Below, piece after piece: positions 2,272 through 38,266 of a stretch of DNA of 38,633 nt; position 1 is the stretch's first letter; every line of letters starts with the position of its first letter. The notes beneath the pieces are model-generated. The model made no database searches. It was given only the letters and a program-made list of their open reading frames with translations, and had not been told where the DNA came from. Source of the DNA: a virus; IMG/VR virus record IMGVR_UViG_3300044684_000360, positions 1-38,633 of that record; one strand, 5' to 3'. Position numbers and translations under genes: made by a program.

Positions 2272-2768
2272 TGCTCCTTCACGGCCTCATTCGGCTCGCA
2301 AACAGGCCCTGTGGCCGCGCTGGAGCCTCGCTGAGCAGCGCTGGCGCGGAGCCGCTGTGCAGCAGCCGTTGCCGCGTCGGCGCGCTCTGTGGCAGCTCCC
2401 AGGGCCTTGGCGGCGATCTGCTGCTGCTGGGCTGACTTCGCGGACAGGGCTTCGAGCGACGCATTCTGCGCCGCGATCGCTTGGCGCAGCTTCGCCTCGT
2501 TCGCCTGCGAGGCCGCGAGGTCGGCGCGCGCGGCATTCAACTGTCCGACGGCGGCAGACAGCTGCGTCTCGACCTTCACACTATGCCGGTGCTGCGACCA
2601 GCGGCCGAACGTCTGCCATAGCGCGAACAGCGCGAGCGCGATGGCCATCACGTCCTTCGCATCAAGGCTCCCGAGCCAGGTGAGAAGGCCCTTGCCCATG
2701 TCGGCGGCTTTCCCGAGCAGGGTTCCGGCAACGGCCCTGAAGGCGACGCCGGCGACGAGGCCGGTCAC
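2262..2768 (-). CDS. Putative inner-membrane spanin (Rz-like)
   Basis: A 168-residue protein with an N-terminal amphipathic stretch, one membrane segment at ~38-54 (VMAIALALFALWQTFG) and a long Ala/Gln/Glu-rich coiled coil at ~65-150, the layout of an Rz-type i-spanin. It starts with GTG, overlapping the TGA of the 43-residue gene upstream (GTGA), so it is probably translationally coupled. Two Cys-free coiled-coil halves are followed by a short tail with one Cys (VCEPNEAVKEQWQ). The lipoprotein gene follows with a 10-base overlap. Alternative: a generic phage coiled-coil membrane protein. Confidence 0.65.
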   Translation of the reverse strand: MTGLVAGVAFRAVAGTLLGKAADMGKGLLTWLGSLDAKDVMAIALALFALWQTFGRWSQHRHSVKVETQLSAAVGQLNAARADLAASQANEAKLRQAIAAQNASLEALSAKSAQQQQIAAKALGAATERADAATAAAQRLRASAAQRGSSAATGPVCEPNEAVKEQWQ

Positions 2769-2896
2769 GCGGGAATCACCAGGAGCAGCGTCAGGAACAG
2801 CAAGCCCAGCGGCTCGAGATTGACGCGCGAGGGAACGCCCGCAGCGGCTCCGGCAAAGCAGAGCACCGCCAGGATGGCGAGGATGGTGTGCAGCAT
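2765..2896 (-). CDS. Small two-segment membrane protein, 43 aa
   Basis: A short ORF translating as two hydrophobic stretches (MLHTILAILAVLCFAGAAA and LGLLFLTLLLVIP) around a short polar hinge with one Arg. The ATG follows AAAGG with nine bases between, and the TGA overlaps the GTG of the i-spanin. It sits in the lysis block, so a small holin, antiholin or pinholin role is possible, but nothing in the sequence proves it. Confidence 0.6.
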   Translation of the reverse strand: MLHTILAILAVLCFAGAAAGVPSRVNLEPLGLLFLTLLLVIPA

Positions 2897-2909
2897 GGGA
2901 ACTTGCCTT

Positions 2910-3143
2910 TCAGGCTATCGACGAGGGCTTCGCGAGCTCGGGCGCGTCGGGGTCGAATTGCGGCGCCTGCTCGGGGTCGATCGCGCCGGGAGCGGAGTCG
3001 TCCCCATCGGGTGCCGGGTTTCCCTCGCAGATAGGAAAGGCGGCGTGCACGAGTGGCATCGGCGGCGGCCGATCGAAACGGTCGAGCGCGGCCATGATCG
3101 CCGCGCCGAGGAGCCCTGCGAGCGCGAGCCTAGCCGCCAGCAT
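2910..3143 (-). CDS. Small signal-anchored lysis-block protein, 77 aa
   Basis: Begins with a hydrophobic N-terminal segment (residues 1-19) and continues with a Pro/Asp-rich tail, so it is probably anchored in or exported across the inner membrane. The ATG at 3143 is chosen over an upstream one at 3206 because GGGAG lies seven bases before it and because the longer form would run deep into the holin-like gene; the chosen form overlaps that gene by 14 bases. No family recognised. One Cys (FPICEG) follows the segment. Confidence 0.6.
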   Translation of the reverse strand: MLAARLALAGLLGAAIMAALDRFDRPPPMPLVHAAFPICEGNPAPDGDDSAPGAIDPEQAPQFDPDAPELAKPSSIA

Positions 3144-3498
3144 TGCCGCTCCCTTCGCCGGCGTCGGTTTGCGTCGCGGCTGCCTGGGCATCTCCCTGGG
3201 CCTCAAGGCCGTCCGGCCCGATCTTCAGGGACCGGATCGCGACGAACATGGCGAGGCCGATCACCACGATCAGATGCGCGAGCGACACCTCCTGCGCGAG
3301 CGACTTGAAGACGTCGGTCAGCTTGGCCGCGAGCGCCTGCTGCATCGCCCAGATGACGAGCAACGTGAGCGCGGGCCCGGCACCGGCGAAGATCAGGTAG
3401 ATGAGCGTCTGCCGCCCGGCAAAGCCGAACGGAAACCAGCTGGCGATCGCTCGGAAGGGCGATCCCAGCCAGCGGAAGAAGGCGCCCCAGCGGTTCAT
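3130..3498 (-). CDS. Putative holin, 122 aa
   Basis: Two membrane segments are visible (about residues 29-52, YLIFAGAGPALTLLVIWAM, and 74-90, LIVVIGLAMFVAI), separated by a short charged amphipathic helix, and followed by a hydrophilic Ala/Asp-rich tail. Size, topology and position directly after the endolysin fit a holin that opens the inner membrane for muralytic enzyme release. The ATG at 3498 overlaps the endolysin TGA (ATGA); an upstream ATG at 3609 would read far into the endolysin and is rejected. No specific holin family recognised. Confidence 0.6.
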   Translation of the reverse strand: MNRWGAFFRWLGSPFRAIASWFPFGFAGRQTLIYLIFAGAGPALTLLVIWAMQQALAAKLTDVFKSLAQEVSLAHLIVVIGLAMFVAIRSLKIGPDGLEAQGDAQAAATQTDAGEGSGNAGG

Positions 3499-7468: not shown

Positions 7469-9502
7469 CTACGATGAGGAGACGGCGACGCCGCCCGATG
7501 GAGTGCCGGGACCGCCGCCAGCGCCGCTGCCGTAGCCGGCGCCGGTCGGCGTGTAGGTATAGGCGGTGACCGTCGAGATGTCCTGCGCCGCCTGTCCGTA
7601 GATGTTGAAGCTGACGAACTTGAGATAGATCGTGCCGCCGATGTACGAGGTTGGCAGCTCGTACCTGAGCAGCGTGGTCGCGTTCGCCTGAAGGTCGATC
7701 CGGGTGAAGAGGTCGTTGGTCGAGTGAGCCGCAGGAGCGGTGCCATAGAGTCCGCGACGCAGATAGGTGAGGTTGTCCGTGTAGGTGCCGGTCGCGCTGA
7801 CTGCGCCATAGGCGATCAGTTCGCCGAGCGTCGGCAGCACGACGCCGGAGGCCGGTGCCGAGAGATAGGCGAGCGAGCGGAACGCGTCGGCATCGGCGTG
7901 AGTCACTGGATTGAGGACGCCCGCACTCTCGGTCAGGTCGACGCTCAGCGTGTCGGTCGTGTCCGGGTCCGCGTGGCTGGCGAGCGACGCGGTGAGTACG
8001 CCCTGCCGCGCCGGGCCGATCAGCGTCCCGATCGAAACGTAGGTGGTCCCATCGAAGCTGACGAAGACCTGCGCGCCGCCCCAGTATTGGCCGCCAGACG
8101 CCGCGATCCAGACTTCCGCGACGCCGTTGGTCAGGTTCGAATTGGGCTCGAAGACGCACGGCGTGTTGACGTTGCCGGGCGCGACGAGGTTGTTGAACGT
8201 GTTCGGCGTCGAGGGCTGCGGCGTCGAATTGTTGGGCGTCCCGGTCGTGGCGTTGCCGAAGAATTCTTCCGCGGTGATCGCGAGCTTGTAGTCGGCGCTC
8301 TCGTCGACCGTCTTCACGCGGACGGGGAGTTGGGTGATCGCCGCATTGTTGGGGTCGGTGATGGTGACGATGTCGCCCGGCTCGAGCCGGATGAACTTGT
8401 AGGGCAGCGTGAACGAATAGGTGTTGCGCTGGAATGCCGCGCGCTGGCCGATCAGGTCGGCGACGATCGTCCCGACCGCGGCGGACGCGATCTCGTCGGC
8501 CTGCTGCGTCGAATTGTCGCGCAAGCCATATTGGTCGAACAGCGTCTGGTCGCGGTACTCGATCGGGTTCGAATTGTAGCCGAGCGCGCGGTCGGTGATC
8601 TGGATGACGGTCCGGTTCGGAGCGTCGGCTGGGTCGATCCGCTGGACCTTGATCGGCGGTGTGCCGATGAAGTCGGCGATGGTGAGGTCGTACTGGACGG
8701 TGGTGAGCGGCGTATAGGTCGCGCTGTTCCCCGTAACTGGCGAATCCCCGAGCGGCACGAGCCGGAGCTGGTCGGCGCTCCAGAAGATCCAGCTGTTCGA
8801 CAGAATCGCCCAGCGGTCGATGATGTCGGTCGCCTTCTCCTGGCTGATGAGCGCGGGCGAGAAGAACAGGCCCTGGGCCTGCTGGTAGGTTTTGAAGAAA
8901 GCGAGGTCGGACGCATTGATGTCGCCCGACGCGAGCCCCATCCCGTAGATCGTGTTGGTCAGGAAATCCGGGATGATGTCGCCGAAATTGCAATCTGGCG
9001 TTCCCGGCATGGTGCCGGATAGATTGGCGACGACCTCGACGTCGATCTGCGGGAGCGCCGATGACGATCCGAGGTTGAGCGAGGATGCCGCGAGATAGGC
9101 CGTGTGAGCGTAGGACAGCGCCTGGCTGGGGTGCTTCGAGCTGACGTACGACCACGGCGTCTGTGTCGCCGAGCCGCCGAACAGCGTGAGGCCGACCGCC
9201 GAGAGGCTGGTGACGGCCTGGTTCTGCCAGACGTTGCCGATCGAGGAGACGACGCCTTCGCAAAGGCCGAGGATCACCGCGACGGTGTAGGTGTAGGAGG
9301 TCGACCCCTTGCCGCCGCCCTTGCCGCCGCCCTTGCCGCTGTCCTGGCTGTGGGCGGTGAAGTCGTTCTGCCAGATGAGGTTCCACGCGAGCCGCCGCTT
9401 GCCCCAGACGATGGGGATCGGGACGTTCAGCGCCGAGGTCTGGACCTGCAGTCCGGTGTACTTGGTGACCTGCGTGTTGTTGGTGCCGAGGAGACCGCTC
9501 AT
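7469..9502 (-). CDS. Tail tip hub protein (GTA gp15 / lambda gpJ-like)
   Basis: A 677-residue protein of the phage tail-tip attachment type. The N-terminus (SALNVPIPIVWGKRRLAWN) and the Gly/Lys loop (GKGGGKGGGKGS) near residue 55 are typical of the central hub of siphovirus and GTA baseplates. A later segment (LPYKFIRLEPGDIVTITDP, ~370-390) matches hub proteins, and the C-terminus continues into fibronectin-like folds. It sits directly after the NlpC peptidase and a 72-residue ORF with ATGA overlap, as in gene transfer agent clusters. It should form the tip channel and hold the fibre. Confidence 0.85.
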   Translation of the reverse strand: MSGLLGTNNTQVTKYTGLQVQTSALNVPIPIVWGKRRLAWNLIWQNDFTAHSQDSGKGGGKGGGKGSTSYTYTVAVILGLCEGVVSSIGNVWQNQAVTSLSAVGLTLFGGSATQTPWSYVSSKHPSQALSYAHTAYLAASSLNLGSSSALPQIDVEVVANLSGTMPGTPDCNFGDIIPDFLTNTIYGMGLASGDINASDLAFFKTYQQAQGLFFSPALISQEKATDIIDRWAILSNSWIFWSADQLRLVPLGDSPVTGNSATYTPLTTVQYDLTIADFIGTPPIKVQRIDPADAPNRTVIQITDRALGYNSNPIEYRDQTLFDQYGLRDNSTQQADEIASAAVGTIVADLIGQRAAFQRNTYSFTLPYKFIRLEPGDIVTITDPNNAAITQLPVRVKTVDESADYKLAITAEEFFGNATTGTPNNSTPQPSTPNTFNNLVAPGNVNTPCVFEPNSNLTNGVAEVWIAASGGQYWGGAQVFVSFDGTTYVSIGTLIGPARQGVLTASLASHADPDTTDTLSVDLTESAGVLNPVTHADADAFRSLAYLSAPASGVVLPTLGELIAYGAVSATGTYTDNLTYLRRGLYGTAPAAHSTNDLFTRIDLQANATTLLRYELPTSYIGGTIYLKFVSFNIYGQAAQDISTVTAYTYTPTGAGYGSGAGGGPGTPSGGVAVSSS

Positions 9503-9717
9503 CGCCGAGCGTCCATCTTGGCGAGTAGCTGCTGTGCTCGGTCGCGGTCAGGATTGGGCTGACAGGCGAGCGACAGCAGTAAGTAGCGACGCGCCTGCCG
9601 GGTCCACAGACCGTTTTGCTTGTAAGGTCGAGAGCCCGGCGATCCCGAGAGCCGGCCTTTGTCCATGCGATCGTCATCGAACTCGCGACCGGTGATCGGG
9701 CATCGGTCGCTCGTCAT
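9499..9717 (-). CDS. Small Cys/Arg-containing protein between peptidase and hub, 72 aa
   Basis: Starts MTSDRCPITGREFDDDRMDK; the stop overlaps the hub ATG (ATGA) and the start overlaps the peptidase stop. A longer open frame to 10125 exists but runs through the whole peptidase gene and is Arg-rich, so it is a shadow. Not one of the four standard GTA tail-tip genes; function unknown. Confidence 0.65.
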   Translation of the reverse strand: MTSDRCPITGREFDDDRMDKGRLSGSPGSRPYKQNGLWTRQARRYLLLSLACQPNPDRDRAQQLLAKMDARR

Positions 9718-28307: not shown

Positions 28308-29888
28308 TTAGCCTCCTGGTCCGGGGCGGGCGGCGGTGATGATGATCGGCGCGACGATGGGGATTTTCGGACTGCCGAGCGCGAGCTCGTCGAGCGCATC
28401 CACGAACGCATCCACCTGGTCATCGAACGCGCCGCTCGGGAACGCGCACAGTTCATCGAGGAACATCTGGTTCCATTCGCCGCGCAGCAGCTTGACGTTT
28501 CCGGCTTCCGCCTGCGCTGACGCCGGCCGAGCGCGAAGCGTCTTCTCGCCCGTGACCCGCTTGGTGATCACCGGATAGCCGGCGAGCAGGCGGGTCTTCG
28601 CCATGGCATCCGACTTGCCCGCCGCTCCCGGATCTTCCGGCTTGCGGATCGTCACCTGCTTGCCGTCCTGGCTAGCGGTGTTTTTCAGTTGCGTGTCGAC
28701 CTCGCCTGGGCTCCAGCGTCCTCGAACCACGTCCTCGACGTAGAAAGTCGAGCCGACCATCAGCATTCGAACACCGACCGTCCAGTCCGGATTTCGCCCG
28801 GGCTTGGGGATCGATGCGGCAAAGTCCCACGCCCGGACGCGCTTGCCGCCGCCTGGGACAGCGTCGACGATCTCGAAATCGCCCCTCTGGAACATGCCGC
28901 CGGAGCGCGGCTTGGGATTCTGGTCGTATTGACCAGAATAGGCGTAGCTGCCCATGTCGCGCTTCAGTCGTTCAACCTCGGACTTGGGGAAGCGCTTCGG
29001 GTCGAGCAGTTGGCCCTCGTCTGTTCGCGGATCCTTGAAGCCAATCGCCGTTTCGCAGGCGCGCACCGGATCGAACTCCATCGGCAGCATCAGGTGAACG
29101 TATTCCATGCCGAGCGAGAGGATCACGCCGCTGATGTCCTGCTCGTGCAAGCGCTGCATGATGACCACGATCGCGCTCTTGCGCTGGTCGTTCAGCCGGT
29201 TGACGGCGCCCTCTCGGAAGAGGCGCGTGGTTTCCGTTCGCTCAGCGTCCGATTCGGCCGTCTTGGTCGAATGGGGATCGTCGATGATCAGCCGGTCGCC
29301 GCGCTGCGAGGTCAGCGACCCGAATGGGATGCCTTCTCGCGTTCCGGTCGAAGAGTTGGCGAAGCTGGTCTCGGCGGTGCGGGTCAGCTCAACTTCGGGC
29401 CAGAGCCTGCGATACCACTCCGACGCGATGAGGTCGCGGCACTTGCGGGTGTCGCGCTTGACCGGAATCTCGTTAAACGCGGTGGCGAGGTAGCGAAGCG
29501 AGCGCCGCCCGCACGGGCCCCATTCCCAAGCCTGCCACATCACCGAGACGATCAGCGACTTCGATGAGCCAGGCGGAACGTTGATCATCAGCCGGTTGAT
29601 ACGGCCGTCTGTCACCGCCTCGAGGTGTTGGCAGATGGCTTCGATGTGCCAGCTGTGGACATACTCGGCCTCGGGCTCGAGTACGTGCCAGGCCTCCCGG
29701 ACGAAACCGGCCAGCGTCTTGCACCGCTTGCGGATCTGTTCGGCGTTCTTCTCGACGTCGCGAAGCTCGCCCTCCTGGCGCCGGATCTCTTCGCGCCGTT
29801 CCTTCTCGGCGAGGAGGGCGAGGAGCTCGCGTTTGCCCTCAGTGCTGAGTGGGGCGATCTGCGGTTGCATTGCCGGAGAGGAGAGCAT
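28308..29888 (-). CDS. terL: Terminase large subunit
   Basis: A 526-residue DNA packaging motor. ATPase part: Walker A NVPPGSSKS at ~103-111 and Walker B RLIIDDPH at ~199-206. Nuclease part: RAWDFAAS with Asp355 and FDDQVDAF at ~488-495 as metal-binding acidic positions. Full length for the family. ATG 29888 follows GGTGGAGG at nine bases and lies 50 bases inside the small-subunit gene. A long N-terminal charged helix (20-60) precedes the motor. Confidence 0.95.
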   Translation of the reverse strand: MLSSPAMQPQIAPLSTEGKRELLALLAEKERREEIRRQEGELRDVEKNAEQIRKRCKTLAGFVREAWHVLEPEAEYVHSWHIEAICQHLEAVTDGRINRLMINVPPGSSKSLIVSVMWQAWEWGPCGRRSLRYLATAFNEIPVKRDTRKCRDLIASEWYRRLWPEVELTRTAETSFANSSTGTREGIPFGSLTSQRGDRLIIDDPHSTKTAESDAERTETTRLFREGAVNRLNDQRKSAIVVIMQRLHEQDISGVILSLGMEYVHLMLPMEFDPVRACETAIGFKDPRTDEGQLLDPKRFPKSEVERLKRDMGSYAYSGQYDQNPKPRSGGMFQRGDFEIVDAVPGGGKRVRAWDFAASIPKPGRNPDWTVGVRMLMVGSTFYVEDVVRGRWSPGEVDTQLKNTASQDGKQVTIRKPEDPGAAGKSDAMAKTRLLAGYPVITKRVTGEKTLRARPASAQAEAGNVKLLRGEWNQMFLDELCAFPSGAFDDQVDAFVDALDELALGSPKIPIVAPIIITAARPGPGG

Positions 29889-30351
29889 TGATGCGCGCCT
29901 CCACCTCCTCGTCGCTCAAATCTCGGTATTCGATCGGACCGCCATTGGCGCCGGTGTGCTCAAGGCCGGTCCGCTTGCGCCAGTCAGGGCCGCCGCGGCG
30001 ATCGAGCCACATCTCGATCTTCTTCGCGTCGCCTTCGATCGCGCCCTCGAACAGCGTCTTGCCGACTTTGGCGTTTGCACGAACCGCGGCTTCATCGAGC
30101 TCGGCGCGGAAATGGCGTTCGAGCGTGTCGACGCTGATGCCGAGCTCGTCGGCAATCAGGCGCTGTAGTGTCCCGACCGCCGCCAGCAAAACCACCTTGT
30201 CACGCTGTTCATCGGTCGCGACGAATGGCGGGTTGCCGATGCGGCCCTTCTGCGTAGGCCCAGAACTTCGGACACCGGGGCCGCCTTGAATCGTGCCCTT
30301 CCCCTTGGGACAGCCGCGCCGATCGGAAGACTTTTTCGGCTCGCGTTTCAT
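29839..30351 (-). CDS. terS: Terminase small subunit
   Basis: A 170-residue protein with a basic, Gly/Lys-rich N-terminus (~1-40) and a helix-turn-helix at ~55-85 (LIADELGISVDTLERHF), then a helical segment (AKVGKTLFEGAIEGDAKKIE) common in small terminases. It recognises the packaging site and stimulates the large subunit. It overlaps the large-subunit gene by 50 bases. Packaging sites often lie near this gene, but I could not identify one. Confidence 0.85.
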   Translation of the reverse strand: MKREPKKSSDRRGCPKGKGTIQGGPGVRSSGPTQKGRIGNPPFVATDEQRDKVVLLAAVGTLQRLIADELGISVDTLERHFRAELDEAAVRANAKVGKTLFEGAIEGDAKKIEMWLDRRGGPDWRKRTGLEHTGANGGPIEYRDLSDEEVEARINALLSGNATADRPTQH

Positions 30352-30399: not shown

Positions 30400-30426
30400 T
30401 TGACAGGCCCATCGGGCCGGTATAAT
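30400..30426 (+). promoter_or_regulatory. Near-consensus promoter with operator-like dyad in the spacer
   Basis: TTGACA at 30400-30405 and TATAAT at 30421-30426 are both perfect boxes, with a short 15-base spacer. Thirteen of these 15 bases are an inverted repeat (GGCCC-ATC-GGGCC, 30406-30418), a likely operator. It drives the plus-strand cassette; the HTH protein encoded third in that cassette is a natural candidate to bind here. Confidence 0.7.
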
Positions 30427-30443
30427 CAGGACTCCTCAACCAC

Positions 30444-30456
30444 GGGGCCAAGCCCC
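30444..30456 (+). repeat. Leader hairpin of the plus-strand cassette
   Basis: A perfect GGGGC/GCCCC stem with a CAA loop lies between the promoter and the ribosome site of the first gene. It may stabilise the mRNA or serve as a second protein site. Confidence 0.4.
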
Positions 30457-30476
30457 ACCTGGCAAGGGAGAATGCG

Positions 30477-30818
30477 ATGTTTGTGGTTTCCTATTCCGTC
30501 TGCAACATGGTGCGCACCAGCCGCCATTCCACCTTGAACGAAGCGCTTGATGAGTGCCTTTGCCAGCTCGGCAAGGGCAATTCGTCCGCGCTCTGCGGCG
30601 ATGACTTCTCGGCCGCACCCACGGTCAAAAACAGATTTGCGGAGAAGCCGATTACCGAGTGGGCTATCAGCTTCGATCCGATCGGCATTTACAAATCCTG
30701 CCACTGTCGGCTCGGAGAGCGGTGCGGTATCCGTTACACCTCGCACCGGCGCGGCTATCGCGCATCGCTTCGCGCCTTCCGCACGTTCGCGACCGCCATC
30801 GACGGGGAGGCCGCATAA
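30477..30818 (+). CDS. Plus-strand cassette gene 1, hypothetical 113 aa
   Basis: Begins MFVVSYSVCNMVRTSRHSTL after AAGGGAGAATGCG, a strong ribosome site, 50 bases past a near-consensus promoter. Six Cys residues (two in CLCQ/CHCRL type pairs) and a basic C-terminus (RRGYRASLRAFRTF) suggest a small, possibly nucleic-acid-binding protein. It abuts the next gene with no gap. No family recognised. The opposite strand is also open here for 181 codons but lacks support. Confidence 0.65.
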   Translation: MFVVSYSVCNMVRTSRHSTLNEALDECLCQLGKGNSSALCGDDFSAAPTVKNRFAEKPITEWAISFDPIGIYKSCHCRLGERCGIRYTSHRRGYRASLRAFRTFATAIDGEAA

Positions 30819-31028
30819 ATGACAACAGCCGATCTTCAGCAGCTCATTCGCGAGCGCGAGTTCGCCTTCGATCACTGGTTCAGCGGCGAAGTCGGTCCCC
30901 ACTGGTGCATTGCTCCCCGCGCTACGCCGCGCCTCCTTGCTCGCTACGGCCATGTCATCACGCCGGGTCAAGCGCGCAAGATGCGCGAGCGCTGGGAAGC
31001 GGCCAATCCGGTCACCCTCGGAGCCTGA
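30819..31028 (+). CDS. Plus-strand cassette gene 2, hypothetical 69 aa
   Basis: Starts directly after the stop of gene 1 and ends directly before gene 3, so the three are one operon. Sequence features: DHWFSGEVGPHWCIAPRATP and a basic helix (PGQARKMRERWEAANP). No family recognised. Confidence 0.6.
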   Translation: MTTADLQQLIREREFAFDHWFSGEVGPHWCIAPRATPRLLARYGHVITPGQARKMRERWEAANPVTLGA

Positions 31029-31208
31029 ATGACGCCAGCGACCTTCAAGGCCATCCGCCAGCGAGCCGGGCTCTCACAGTCCGGCCTCGCCGCGCGCCTT
31101 CGCATCAGCGACATTCGCACGATCCGCAAATGGGAGGCCGGCGAACGCACGATCAGCGGGCCTGTCTCGCTCCTGATGGAGCTGCTCGACGCCGGGAAGC
31201 TGCCCTAG
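31029..31208 (+). CDS. Small HTH (XRE-type) DNA-binding protein, 59 aa
   Basis: A compact helix-turn-helix protein. LSQSGLAARLRISDIRTIRK covers the two helices, and WEAGERTISGPVSLLMELLD is the typical continuation in small alphaproteobacterial and phage regulators. It starts immediately after the previous stop. It could repress the cassette promoter through the dyad at 30406-30418, or act as an antitoxin-like partner of genes 1 and 2. Its TAG overlaps the TAG of the convergent minus-strand gene in a shared CTAG. Confidence 0.75.
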   Translation: MTPATFKAIRQRAGLSQSGLAARLRISDIRTIRKWEAGERTISGPVSLLMELLDAGKLP

Positions 31209-31435
31209 CCTTTCGCGAGAACGGTTAGCGTCTCGACAGCCCGCTTCACCGCGGCCGGCGGCACTGCTTCTGCGGCCATTTCGGCAAGCGCGACTTCCGC
31301 CGCCAGGCGCATCTCGCCGCGGCTCAGGTCCGGCGTTCGCTCGAGCCTCGGGAACAGGTGCCTGAGGCGCCCTTCGCGAATGCGGACCAGGTCGCGCTCC
31401 AGCAGCGCCGGATCGCGCCGACGATGAAGCGCCAC
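31205..31435 (-). CDS. Small hypothetical protein convergent with the HTH gene, 76 aa
   Basis: Starts with GTG at 31435 after GAGGT. Arg-rich N-terminus, then an Ala/Glu helical part (MRLAAEVALAEMAAEAVPPA). It lies downstream of the putative late promoter/terminator, in the place of lambda's first late-operon ORFs. Function unknown. Confidence 0.5.
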   Translation of the reverse strand: MALHRRRDPALLERDLVRIREGRLRHLFPRLERTPDLSRGEMRLAAEVALAEMAAEAVPPAAVKRAVETLTVLAKG

Positions 31436-31446
31436 ATTCTACCTCG

Positions 31447-31587
31447 TTATCCCCGGCCAAGCCGTTCGAGTTCGGTGCAGACCGATGCCACGTTCTGCGG
31501 CGTCGGGTCTTTCAGCAACCGCGCAAGCTCGAGGAGATATGGGCCCATGCGATCGCGATCGGCAAGAAACGTCGGTTTCCGCGCCAT
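31447..31587 (-). CDS. Very small hypothetical protein, 46 aa
   Basis: Starts MARKPTFLADRDRMGPYLLE; a G-rich stretch (CTGGGGGGCTC) precedes the ATG. Helical and basic at the start, ending 11 bases before the 76-residue gene. First ORF after the putative late terminator. Function unknown. Confidence 0.5.
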   Translation of the reverse strand: MARKPTFLADRDRMGPYLLELARLLKDPTPQNVASVCTELERLGRG

Positions 31588-31635: not shown

Positions 31636-31671
31636 AAATAAAACCGCGCCTGAATCAGCTTCGGGCGCGGT
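31636..31671 (-). terminator. Rho-independent terminator just after the late-regulator gene
   Basis: On the minus strand a 12-bp stem (ACCGCGCCCGAA / TTCAGGCGCGGT, one G-T pair) with a five-base loop is followed by TTTATTT (31636-31642). It ends the transcript of the 299-residue gene and also lies about 10 bases downstream of the expected start of the promoter at 31689-31718, so it could act as an attenuator. Confidence 0.75.
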
Positions 31672-31688
31672 TACCGAGAATGGCGCGA

Positions 31689-31718
31689 TTTATGAAGTCT
31701 GGGTGCACCGACTGTCAA
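31689..31718 (-). promoter_or_regulatory. Candidate late promoter with dyad in the spacer
   Basis: Minus-strand TTGACA (31713-31718) and CATAAA (31689-31694) with an 18-base spacer holding the perfect palindrome GGTGCACC (31702-31709). It starts 15 bases past the 299-residue gene and points into the terminator and then towards the terminase genes. Confidence 0.55.
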
Positions 31719-31733
31719 GTGCTGTTTTCTGCC

Positions 31734-32615
31734 TCATGAAATTCTTCTTGGCTTTCTCGGCGCATCGATGTCGAGCAGCAGCTGACTTAGGTCCGGAGGG
31801 TTCTGGTCGACCACGAGCGAGGCGATCTCGTGCGCGACCCCCTGCACGATGACCAGCGCGGCGGCTTCAGCCTGCTTCGATTTGAACCCGAGCCTTGAAC
31901 CCGCAACCCCAGCCGCCTCGTCTCCGATCACGACGTTCTGCCACACGTTGAAATCGGGAAGGCCGCGGCGGAAGAAGATATCTTGGTCGAACAGGCGAAG
32001 GAGCTGCTTGGCGTCGAGCCGTCCCGCATAACAGCCCTCCATCACGGCGCTCACCGTTCGAACGATCACCGCATTCCAGTTCGCCGTCGTCCGCGGCTGG
32101 CCGATGTGCGCGTGCCAAGCGCGCTGGTAAATCTCGATTGCGGTCATTCTCCGATCGTCCAGCCTGTGGTTTCGATACCAACGCTCGATCGCTGTCCCAC
32201 CGAGATTGCGAACCACATTGACGGTCTTCTCCTTGCCCTTCTCGCCGATCGTGCGCTTGCCGCCTTCCGTCACCTCGACGATCTGGTGCGCAACGAGGTC
32301 GTATTGCCCATGCTGCTGGGCTTCCTTCGAGACCAGACGGTTGACCTCGATCCTCGCCTGAGCCTCGGCGAGCGCAGCCTTGCGGGATCCTCGAGCCTTG
32401 GAGCGTTTGGATGCCTTGGCCTTCGGCTTCTGCTTCGCCGCGGCTTCGGCCGCATTCGCCGCTTCCCGCTTCAACCGCAGCTTTTCGAGCTCGCGCTCCG
32501 CCCATTGCCTGCGGGCCTCGCGCTCCCTGTCGTGGCGTCCCGCTAGTCGAACGGCGCCGGAGCCTTTCAAATCGCCGCCAGAAAGCTCATCCACCCGCTT
32601 TGCCATCCTAAGCAC
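31734..32615 (-). CDS. Putative late regulator (Q-like position), 293-299 aa
   Basis: Residues ~25-95 are Arg/Lys/Glu/Ala-rich helix or disordered basic linker (KQKPKAKASKRSKARGSRK). The C-terminal ~170 residues are globular (YRNHRLDDRRMTAIEIYQRA, HAHIGQPRTTANWNAV). This pattern reminds me of the alphaproteobacterial DUF6456 family, but weakly. It lies between the replication block and the terminase genes and is followed at once by a promoter and terminator, as lambda Q is. Start: GTG 32615 has AAGGGAGG close by; ATGs at 32633 and 32606 are alternatives. Function is inferred from position, not from homology to Q. Confidence 0.6.
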   Translation of the reverse strand: MLRMAKRVDELSGGDLKGSGAVRLAGRHDREREARRQWAERELEKLRLKREAANAAEAAAKQKPKAKASKRSKARGSRKAALAEAQARIEVNRLVSKEAQQHGQYDLVAHQIVEVTEGGKRTIGEKGKEKTVNVVRNLGGTAIERWYRNHRLDDRRMTAIEIYQRAWHAHIGQPRTTANWNAVIVRTVSAVMEGCYAGRLDAKQLLRLFDQDIFFRRGLPDFNVWQNVVIGDEAAGVAGSRLGFKSKQAEAAALVIVQGVAHEIASLVVDQNPPDLSQLLLDIDAPRKPRRIS

Positions 32616-32922
32616 GCCGCCTCCCTTGCGCATGAGGTCCGCTCATGCGGCGTTCCGCCCACGCGGCTTCCTCGGCTTGCCCGATCACCCATTCGGCAAG
32701 CGCGGCCGGCGTTCGGTAGAGCGGCGTCTCGAAGATGCCGTCGGGCACGTCGACGCCGAACACGTCGCTGACGATGAGACAGACGCTGAGGAGCTCGAGG
32801 ACGTTGAGGTCGAGGTCCTCCTTCAAATCGTCGTCGGGCCCGATCGCCTCGAGCTCGATGTCGTCGGTCGCCTCGAACACGATCCGGCGGATTTTCTGGG
32901 TTGCTCCAGCGATCCTGCTCAT
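32608..32922 (-). CDS. Acyl-carrier-protein-like protein lacking the carrier serine
   Basis: A 104-residue protein whose residues ~8-82 follow the ACP pattern: DDDLKEDL...VLELLSVCLIVSDVFGVDVPD, then TPAALAEWVIGQ. In a true ACP the DSL motif would provide the Ser that takes phosphopantetheine. Here the aligned stretch reads LDLN with Asp38 at that place, so it probably cannot be loaded and may serve as a binding adaptor. A basic tail follows (GRRRA). The ATG overlaps the stop of a 14-codon leader (ATGA). Confidence 0.65.
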   Translation of the reverse strand: MSRIAGATQKIRRIVFEATDDIELEAIGPDDDLKEDLDLNVLELLSVCLIVSDVFGVDVPDGIFETPLYRTPAALAEWVIGQAEEAAWAERRMSGPHAQGRRRA

Positions 32923-37672: not shown

Positions 37673-38266
37673 CTACAGCGGAAGAACGTGCTGGAGATCG
37701 AGCGCCCGCGCGTAGGTTTCGAGGAGCGCCGCGGCTTCCTGCCGGGCGTGCTCGTCCATCTTGCGCAGCTTGATGATCGTCTTGACGGTCTTCGTGTCGA
37801 ACCCGTCGCCCTTCATCTCGGAAAAGACGCTGCTCTTGTCCTCGTTCAAGCCCTTGATCTCGGAATCGAGCCGCTCGACGCGCTCGACATAGAGCTTGAG
37901 CTTCTTGGCTGTCGCTGTGTCGGCATCGCCGTTGATCGCGTTGCCGACGAACTTGCCGATCTCAGCCTTGGCCTCATCGTTGGCTGGATCGTCGATGTTG
38001 TCGAGATCGATCGGAAGCTCCGGCCCATCACCGATCCGCACCGTCGTGCGCACGTCTTCTCTCGCCATGTGTTCCTCTCCCTTGTGATGTTCCTCGCGTG
38101 CACCTGCACGCGCGCTCGCGCGAGGCAGCGTCAGCTCGCCCTTCTCGATATCGCGTTCGTGCAGCGCGGCTTCGCTGAGCGGGATGCCCGCGCGCGGCGC
38201 CGCCTGCTCCGGCGCCAAGCCGTCGGCGCGAAGCTGGAGGTAGTCGGAGAACTGCACGCTAGGCAT
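37673..38266 (-). CDS. GapR/DUF2312-like DNA-binding protein with N-terminal extension
   Basis: Residues ~123-190 match the GapR family (EIKGLNEDKSSVFSEMKGDG, then IIKLRKMDEHARQEAA). GapR in alphaproteobacteria binds AT-rich overtwisted DNA. A separate N-terminal unit (~1-48, SDYLQLRADGLAPEQAA, then SEAALHERDIEKGELTLP) looks like a small phage ORF of its own. An internal ATG at 38068 has an excellent ribosome site (GGGAGAGGAA), so a shorter 131-residue GapR-like protein is probably also made, or this is the true start. The frame is open throughout. Confidence 0.75.
   Translation of the reverse strand: MPSVQFSDYLQLRADGLAPEQAAPRAGIPLSEAALHERDIEKGELTLPRASARAGAREEHHKGEEHMAREDVRTTVRIGDGPELPIDLDNIDDPANDEAKAEIGKFVGNAINGDADTATAKKLKLYVERVERLDSEIKGLNEDKSSVFSEMKGDGFDTKTVKTIIKLRKMDEHARQEAAALLETYARALDLQHVLPL

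Follow-up and report, generated by a model that had tools for sequence, protein, structure and literature searches.

DUF6456 (PF20057) is the family of GafA and GafZ, of which GafZ is an antiterminator of gene transfer agents: in Caulobacter it requires a palindrome between the -35 and -10 elements and accompanies RNA polymerase and Nus factors, and the polymerase then passes terminators (PMC11150451). GafA contacts -10/-35 and the omega subunit (PMC9638019), while lambda Q and AlpA load at elements in a comparable promoter position (PMC7171158, PMC7969949). GafA homologs in roseophages have already been noted, without a promoter/terminator system (Fogg 2019; PMC6363796). A search of open-licence papers returned no description of a GafZ-like late switch in a phage, and in these papers late-gene activation in tailed phages of alphaproteobacteria is largely undescribed.

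Here we analyse a 38.6-kb virus record (hereafter the window, meaning the whole stretch of 38,633 nt), which encodes GapR-like, primase, helicase, terminase and portal genes and represents a phage of alphaproteobacteria; related prophage loci are carried by Sphingomonadaceae genomes. The GapR-like domain forms the C-terminal part of a phage gene at 37673–38266 (minus strand), GapR being a nucleoid-associated protein of alphaproteobacteria.

The regulator gene and its surroundings in the window

The gene order on the minus strand is helicase, acyl-carrier-like gene, regulator, promoter, leader terminator, orf46, p76, terS, terL and portal, with regulator, late promoter, leader terminator and packaging genes arranged as in the Q–pR′–tR′ architecture. 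The reading frame of the regulator gene (32633–31734, minus strand) would give 299 aa from an ATG at 32633, the length assigned in an initial annotation of the same letters. A regulator gene is indeed present before the promoter, but its length has to be revised: the probable start is the ATG at 32603 (31734–32603, minus strand; 289 aa), as this codon comes after the stop codon of the preceding gene, has GGGAGG in front of it and yields the MAK... beginning that is common with the homolog in phage contig L082. The protein would consist of long N-terminal helices followed by a DUF6456/GafZ-like core, in which a helical C-terminal part resembles sigma region 4/Q21. It has no Pfam, PHROG or NCBIfam assignment, and as a single-sequence query (tblastn in phages, a first viral scan, Pfam, PHROGs and NCBIfam) it returned no usable family; matches to SMP_2, DUF3322 and VWA were weak and were set aside. 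Immediately upstream lies an acyl-carrier-protein-like gene (32608–32922, minus strand; PF00550, E 1.4e-5), which is kept in the phage contigs L082 and L092 and whose usual DSL serine seems absent in the window (DLDLNVLELL).

The -35 element TTGACA (31713–31718, minus strand) begins 15 nt past the regulator stop codon and is followed by a perfect palindrome in the spacer, GGTGCACC (31702–31709, minus strand), a candidate binding element for the regulator, and by a -10-like CATAAA (31689–31694, minus strand). The promoter thus reads TTGACA-N18-CATAAA, with its distance from the stop codon and its spacer palindrome as first described, and transcription would be expected to start near 31682. The pattern TTGACA-N16–19-NATAAA occurs once in the window and 0 times in 100 shuffles. 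A tR′-like leader terminator follows (31636–31672, minus strand): the 12-bp terminator and T-rich tract placed about 10 bases past the expected start in the initial annotation correspond to a hairpin at 31672–31642, interrupted by a mismatch (9 bp, a 1×1 mismatch and 3 bp; −19.1 kcal/mol), with TTTTATTT after it, the T tract lying at 31643–31636. A strict consensus scanner detected neither promoter nor terminator in the window, since the hairpin has a break in its stem and the sixth position of the -10 is not a T; the leader has no match in Rfam. TAGAAT stands after the start site in L082 and L092, where a sigma-dependent pause element would be expected, and TAGA-like letters are found in many leaders, with no clear counterpart in the window.

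Past the leader terminator, and also on the minus strand, lie orf46 (31447–31587), a small conserved first gene with homologs at the equivalent place in L082 and L092, and p76 (31205–31435), a small late-operon gene with homologs immediately upstream of terS in L082, L092, L005 and L006. The leader terminator is often followed first by a very small ORF, as seen in the window, L082, L092, L126 and L088. The probable small terminase subunit (29839–30351, minus strand) was assigned from its position and its homology to the gene preceding terL in related loci, and the large terminase subunit (28308–29888, minus strand) is the first major late gene. Between p76 and terS the operon contains an antisense three-gene cassette (30400–31208, plus strand) that is absent from the equivalent place in L082 and L092; its last gene encodes an XRE-type helix-turn-helix protein, and the cassette has its own TTGACA/TATAAT with 15-nt spacing and a palindrome, GGCCCATCGGGCC. 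Given this orientation, late read-through would run antisense to the cassette.

Recurrence in related phages and prophages

Two phage contigs, L082 and L092, keep the order helicase, acyl-carrier-like gene, regulator, promoter, leader terminator, orf46, p76, terS and terL, with 0.8–1.0 kb of other genes between regulator and promoter, and TTGACA, a spacer, AATAAA, a leader and a terminator still precede the equivalent late genes. As the promoter stays with the late genes in both, it belongs to the late operon and is more than an appendage of the regulator gene's end. By eye, a GIY-YIG or T5orf172-type nuclease-like gene lies between regulator and late promoter in each (L082, ~9000–9540; L092, ~2640–3190).

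A profile built from the regulator and three relatives gave seven clear homologs among 398 Sphingomonadaceae genomes, and a viral scan with a ten-sequence profile gave 52 loci. An automated test was applied to 48 non-duplicate loci, including seven prophage loci and the window: in the 1.5 kb downstream of the regulator, at least one TTGAC or TTGCA and then a terminator occur in 41 of the 48, as against 4 upstream and 3 on the reverse strand in the controls and a background in which 19 of 427 TTGAC sites have a terminator. An operator of the form TTG(AC/CA)N0–4TGCGCA lies downstream of the regulator in 18 loci (controls, 0 and 0), and a terminator follows such TGCGCA-type promoters in 17 of these 18. 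A stricter terminator scan gave 27 matches downstream versus 2 and 6 in the controls. Taken from the window alone, the distinction of promoter and terminator from chance is only suggestive, because the 66-nt fold has z = −1.4 and an 8-bp palindrome in a long spacer is not very rare; it is the comparative counts, both for promoter with terminator and for the TGCGCA operator, that lift the observation above chance. The initial annotation had likened this part of the window to the Q–pR′–tR′ switch of lambda, a reading supported by the recurrence, in order and across divergent relatives, of regulator, promoter with an operator in its spacer, leader terminator and terminase operon. The first long gene downstream is a terminase large subunit in all 10 loci tested, with four kinds by Pfam (HK97-like TerL, Terminase_3, Terminase_6N and lambda GpA), so that the cassette moves among phages whose packaging machines differ.

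Alignment of 46 promoters, partly hand-chosen, gives a similar picture: GCG(C/T)C, the rise of the terminator stem, begins 45–50 nt past the -35 in most, and leader terminators of −13 kcal/mol or lower are found in 40 of the 46 versus 3.0% of 920 control windows. As hand-picking biased this set towards terminator-bearing loci, we base the main claim on the automated counts. In 21 of the 46 no more than 35 nt separate the promoter from the regulator stop, and in nine loci the regulator's TGA stop codon falls inside the TTGAC of the -35 element; most promoters among the relatives combine a good -35 with a poor -10.

Perfect palindromes of at least 6 bp are present in 27 of 46 spacers (9.9 expected), and several types are non-palindromic (e.g. 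CCCCACCCCGCATG), which we counted against an antiterminator; a palindrome as a constant feature of regulator-linked promoters is thereby ruled out. Mapped on the protein tree, spacer type changes 12 times, as against a mean of 19.3 and a minimum of 15 in 500 shuffles, a grouping that may in part reflect common inheritance alone, since regulator and spacer are neighbours. The stretch TTGACAGTCGGTGCACCC is identical in the window and in homologous locus L133, though their regulators share 35% identity. Outside the sample, the complete phage PP496355.1 carries an unnamed regulator homolog, then, 156 nt later, TTGACGAACTGCGCAGCTAAGTGTATC (a TTGAC-TGCGCA promoter) with a terminator, then terS and terL, and in MT835566.1 the other spacer type lies 2 nt past the gene for the regulator homolog.

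Comparable late promoters also occur beside other genes. In six loci (L035 at 109–190, L022 at 7390, L081 at 5360, L023, L044 and L046) a TTGACA promoter and terminator lie upstream of the terminase, and no regulator homolog was detected in any of them; the spacer of L035 has ACGGTGCACCGT, with a core identical to that of the window. In L088 (2954–3080) the late promoter has an 11-bp inverted repeat, AGTTTCGGAAC-N8-GTTCCGAAACT, across its spacer, after which come a hairpin in the leader, a small ORF and terS, and the gene upstream encodes a protein that is unassigned and different from the regulator.

Distant homology to DUF6456

Below threshold, the four-sequence profile matched mostly DUF6456 proteins, with 14 weak matches in DUF6456 from the Sphingomonadaceae genomes. 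Aligned with hhalign, the regulator profile scored 96.7% against DUF6456 (10 versus 14 sequences) and a larger regulator set 94.7% (42 versus 14 sequences), with 60 column shuffles reaching at most 2.8% on one side and at most 4.9% on the other and a reversed profile 0.2%; a second DUF6456 set, with fewer sequences, gave 51% with the regulator profile. Neither the regulator nor any of 42 relatives matches PF20057 in Pfam at E ≤ 1, and in one related protein (L042) PF20057 is the best Pfam match at E 0.073, far under the cut-off. Thus, of the HMM searches that the initial annotation had advised, those against PF20057 and the Q families in Pfam came out negative, and the profile–profile comparison to DUF6456 positive (94.7–96.7%).

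Structure prediction had been advised in the same place. The models of the regulator (pLDDT 79) and of a DUF6456 protein from a phage contig (pLDDT 71) have an identical order of elements, namely two strands and two helices, then a stretch of disorder, then four helices, and Foldseek against viral models paired the regulator model with the phage DUF6456 protein A0A6J5KP95 at probability 1.00. The profiles and predicted folds support the regulator as a distant homolog of DUF6456/GafZ, and the initial annotation was right to raise a 'different kind of antiterminator' and to name DUF6456 for comparison.

A relation to lambda Q, on the other hand, is rejected at the sequence level, in line with the earlier remark that none was visible: the Q families PF06530 (phage 21), PF03589 (lambda) and PF06323 (phage 82) have no Pfam match in the regulator or its 42 relatives, and PF06530 is absent from the window. 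Among solved structures, VIA-align placed phage 21 Q (6p19_Q) in the top row for the regulator model (Z 7.2, rmsd 4.7, 113 residues; a Z in the unspecific range of the tool), with sigma region 4 domains ranked below it. For the DUF6456 model the best match is sigma region 4 (Z 8–9), with Q21 at Z 6.8, such values not being specific alone. Foldseek against the PDB returned no significant match for the regulator model, and a PDB sequence search with the regulator nothing relevant. As the regulator and its relatives fall below the cut-offs of PF20057 and the Q families, we file them under neither, and instead as a sister family of DUF6456.

A putative late antitermination switch and its counterparts

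We consider it likely that the regulator is a Q-like, GafZ-related processive antiterminator that loads at the late promoter. Sequence comparison establishes the elements, the conservation of their order, their association with the relatives of the regulator and the distant GafZ homology; DNA binding by the regulator, its loading on RNA polymerase, antitermination and the timing of these steps we infer. Antitermination is the most likely mode of action because a distant GafZ relative lies beside a promoter with a spacer element and a leader terminator. RNA polymerase would initiate at the promoter (31718–31689) and, without the regulator, halt at the hairpin (31672–31642) after ~40–46 nt. Once made, the regulator would bind the spacer element (GGTGCACC here) via its sigma region 4-like helix-turn-helix, pass onto RNA polymerase close to the promoter and then travel along, and with the leader terminator and later terminators passed, orf46–p76–terS–terL–portal and the remaining late genes would be transcribed.

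The regulator could instead act at initiation as GafA does, recruiting RNA polymerase near the -35/-10, with the leader terminator serving only to shield the late operon from transcription that arrives from upstream. The contacts made by GafA, the good -35 and poor -10 of most promoters in the group and the resemblance of the DUF6456 model to sigma region 4 all agree with this, yet we regard it as unlikely: in the great majority of loci (41 of 48) the promoter comes first and the terminator after it, often where the regulator gene ends at the promoter, and an insulator would sit better upstream, while GafZ, the nearest tested relative, requires its site for antitermination. The weak -10 of many members does leave room for an additional activating role of an antiterminator. 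Repressor operators typically lie between the -35 and -10, and an operator so placed could equally serve a repressor, be it the regulator or another phage protein, that blocks RNA polymerase, with the leader and its terminator yielding a small RNA of 40–90 nt; we think this very improbable, given the distant homology of the regulator to GafZ and the position of its gene, which closes the replication region, and it leaves the conserved leader terminator without a reason. A further possibility is that the regulator acts elsewhere, promoter and terminator being a constitutive pair unrelated to it that makes a leader RNA. This fits the merely predicted status of regulator binding and the 0.8–1.0 kb separation in L082 and L092, and is nevertheless scarcely credible when spacer type tracks the protein tree and nearly half of the promoters adjoin the regulator stop, even if linkage alone could explain part of both.

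An antiterminator of this kind may have a wider reach. We tentatively suggest that the relatives of the regulator are general late antiterminators of a large mobile class of alphaproteobacterial phages, with GafZ of gene transfer agents a domesticated member and the fold joining phage 21 Q, a view we hold with slightly less than even confidence. A self-contained cassette of regulator, operator and terminator in front of at least four terminase types would provide dozens of natural variants for antiterminator–promoter recognition. It would also point to phages as a possible source of the master switch of gene transfer agents, and allow annotation of a protein family that is named in no library.

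Compared with the Q proteins of phage 21, lambda and phage 82, the locus shares a gene immediately upstream of the late promoter, a putative binding element in or at that promoter, a promoter-proximal terminator and a late operon downstream, whereas the regulator lacks a Pfam Q match and its structural match to Q21 is weak. Pseudomonas aeruginosa AlpA (PMC7969949) is an antiterminator whose element lies between the -35 and -10, with terminators immediately beyond, but it serves a cellular lysis programme and not a phage late switch, and the likeness drawn here is one of arrangement. Unlike GafZ, the regulator is phage-borne, falls under the Pfam cut-off and has extra N-terminal helices; its gene lies directly at its own promoter with no GafY-like partner seen adjoining it (which we counted against antitermination), and the terminator lies in the leader, ~10 nt past the expected start, and not after the first gene. 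An inverted repeat between -35 and -10, as GafZ requires, is present in the window, though not in every sub-type. With Caulobacter crescentus GafZ and the C-terminal part of Rhodobacter GafA the regulator appears to share a distantly homologous core and an equal order of strands and helices, and with the GafZ system as a whole it shares an element between the -35 and -10, terminators downstream and, as the target, a phage-type structural operon (PMC11150451).
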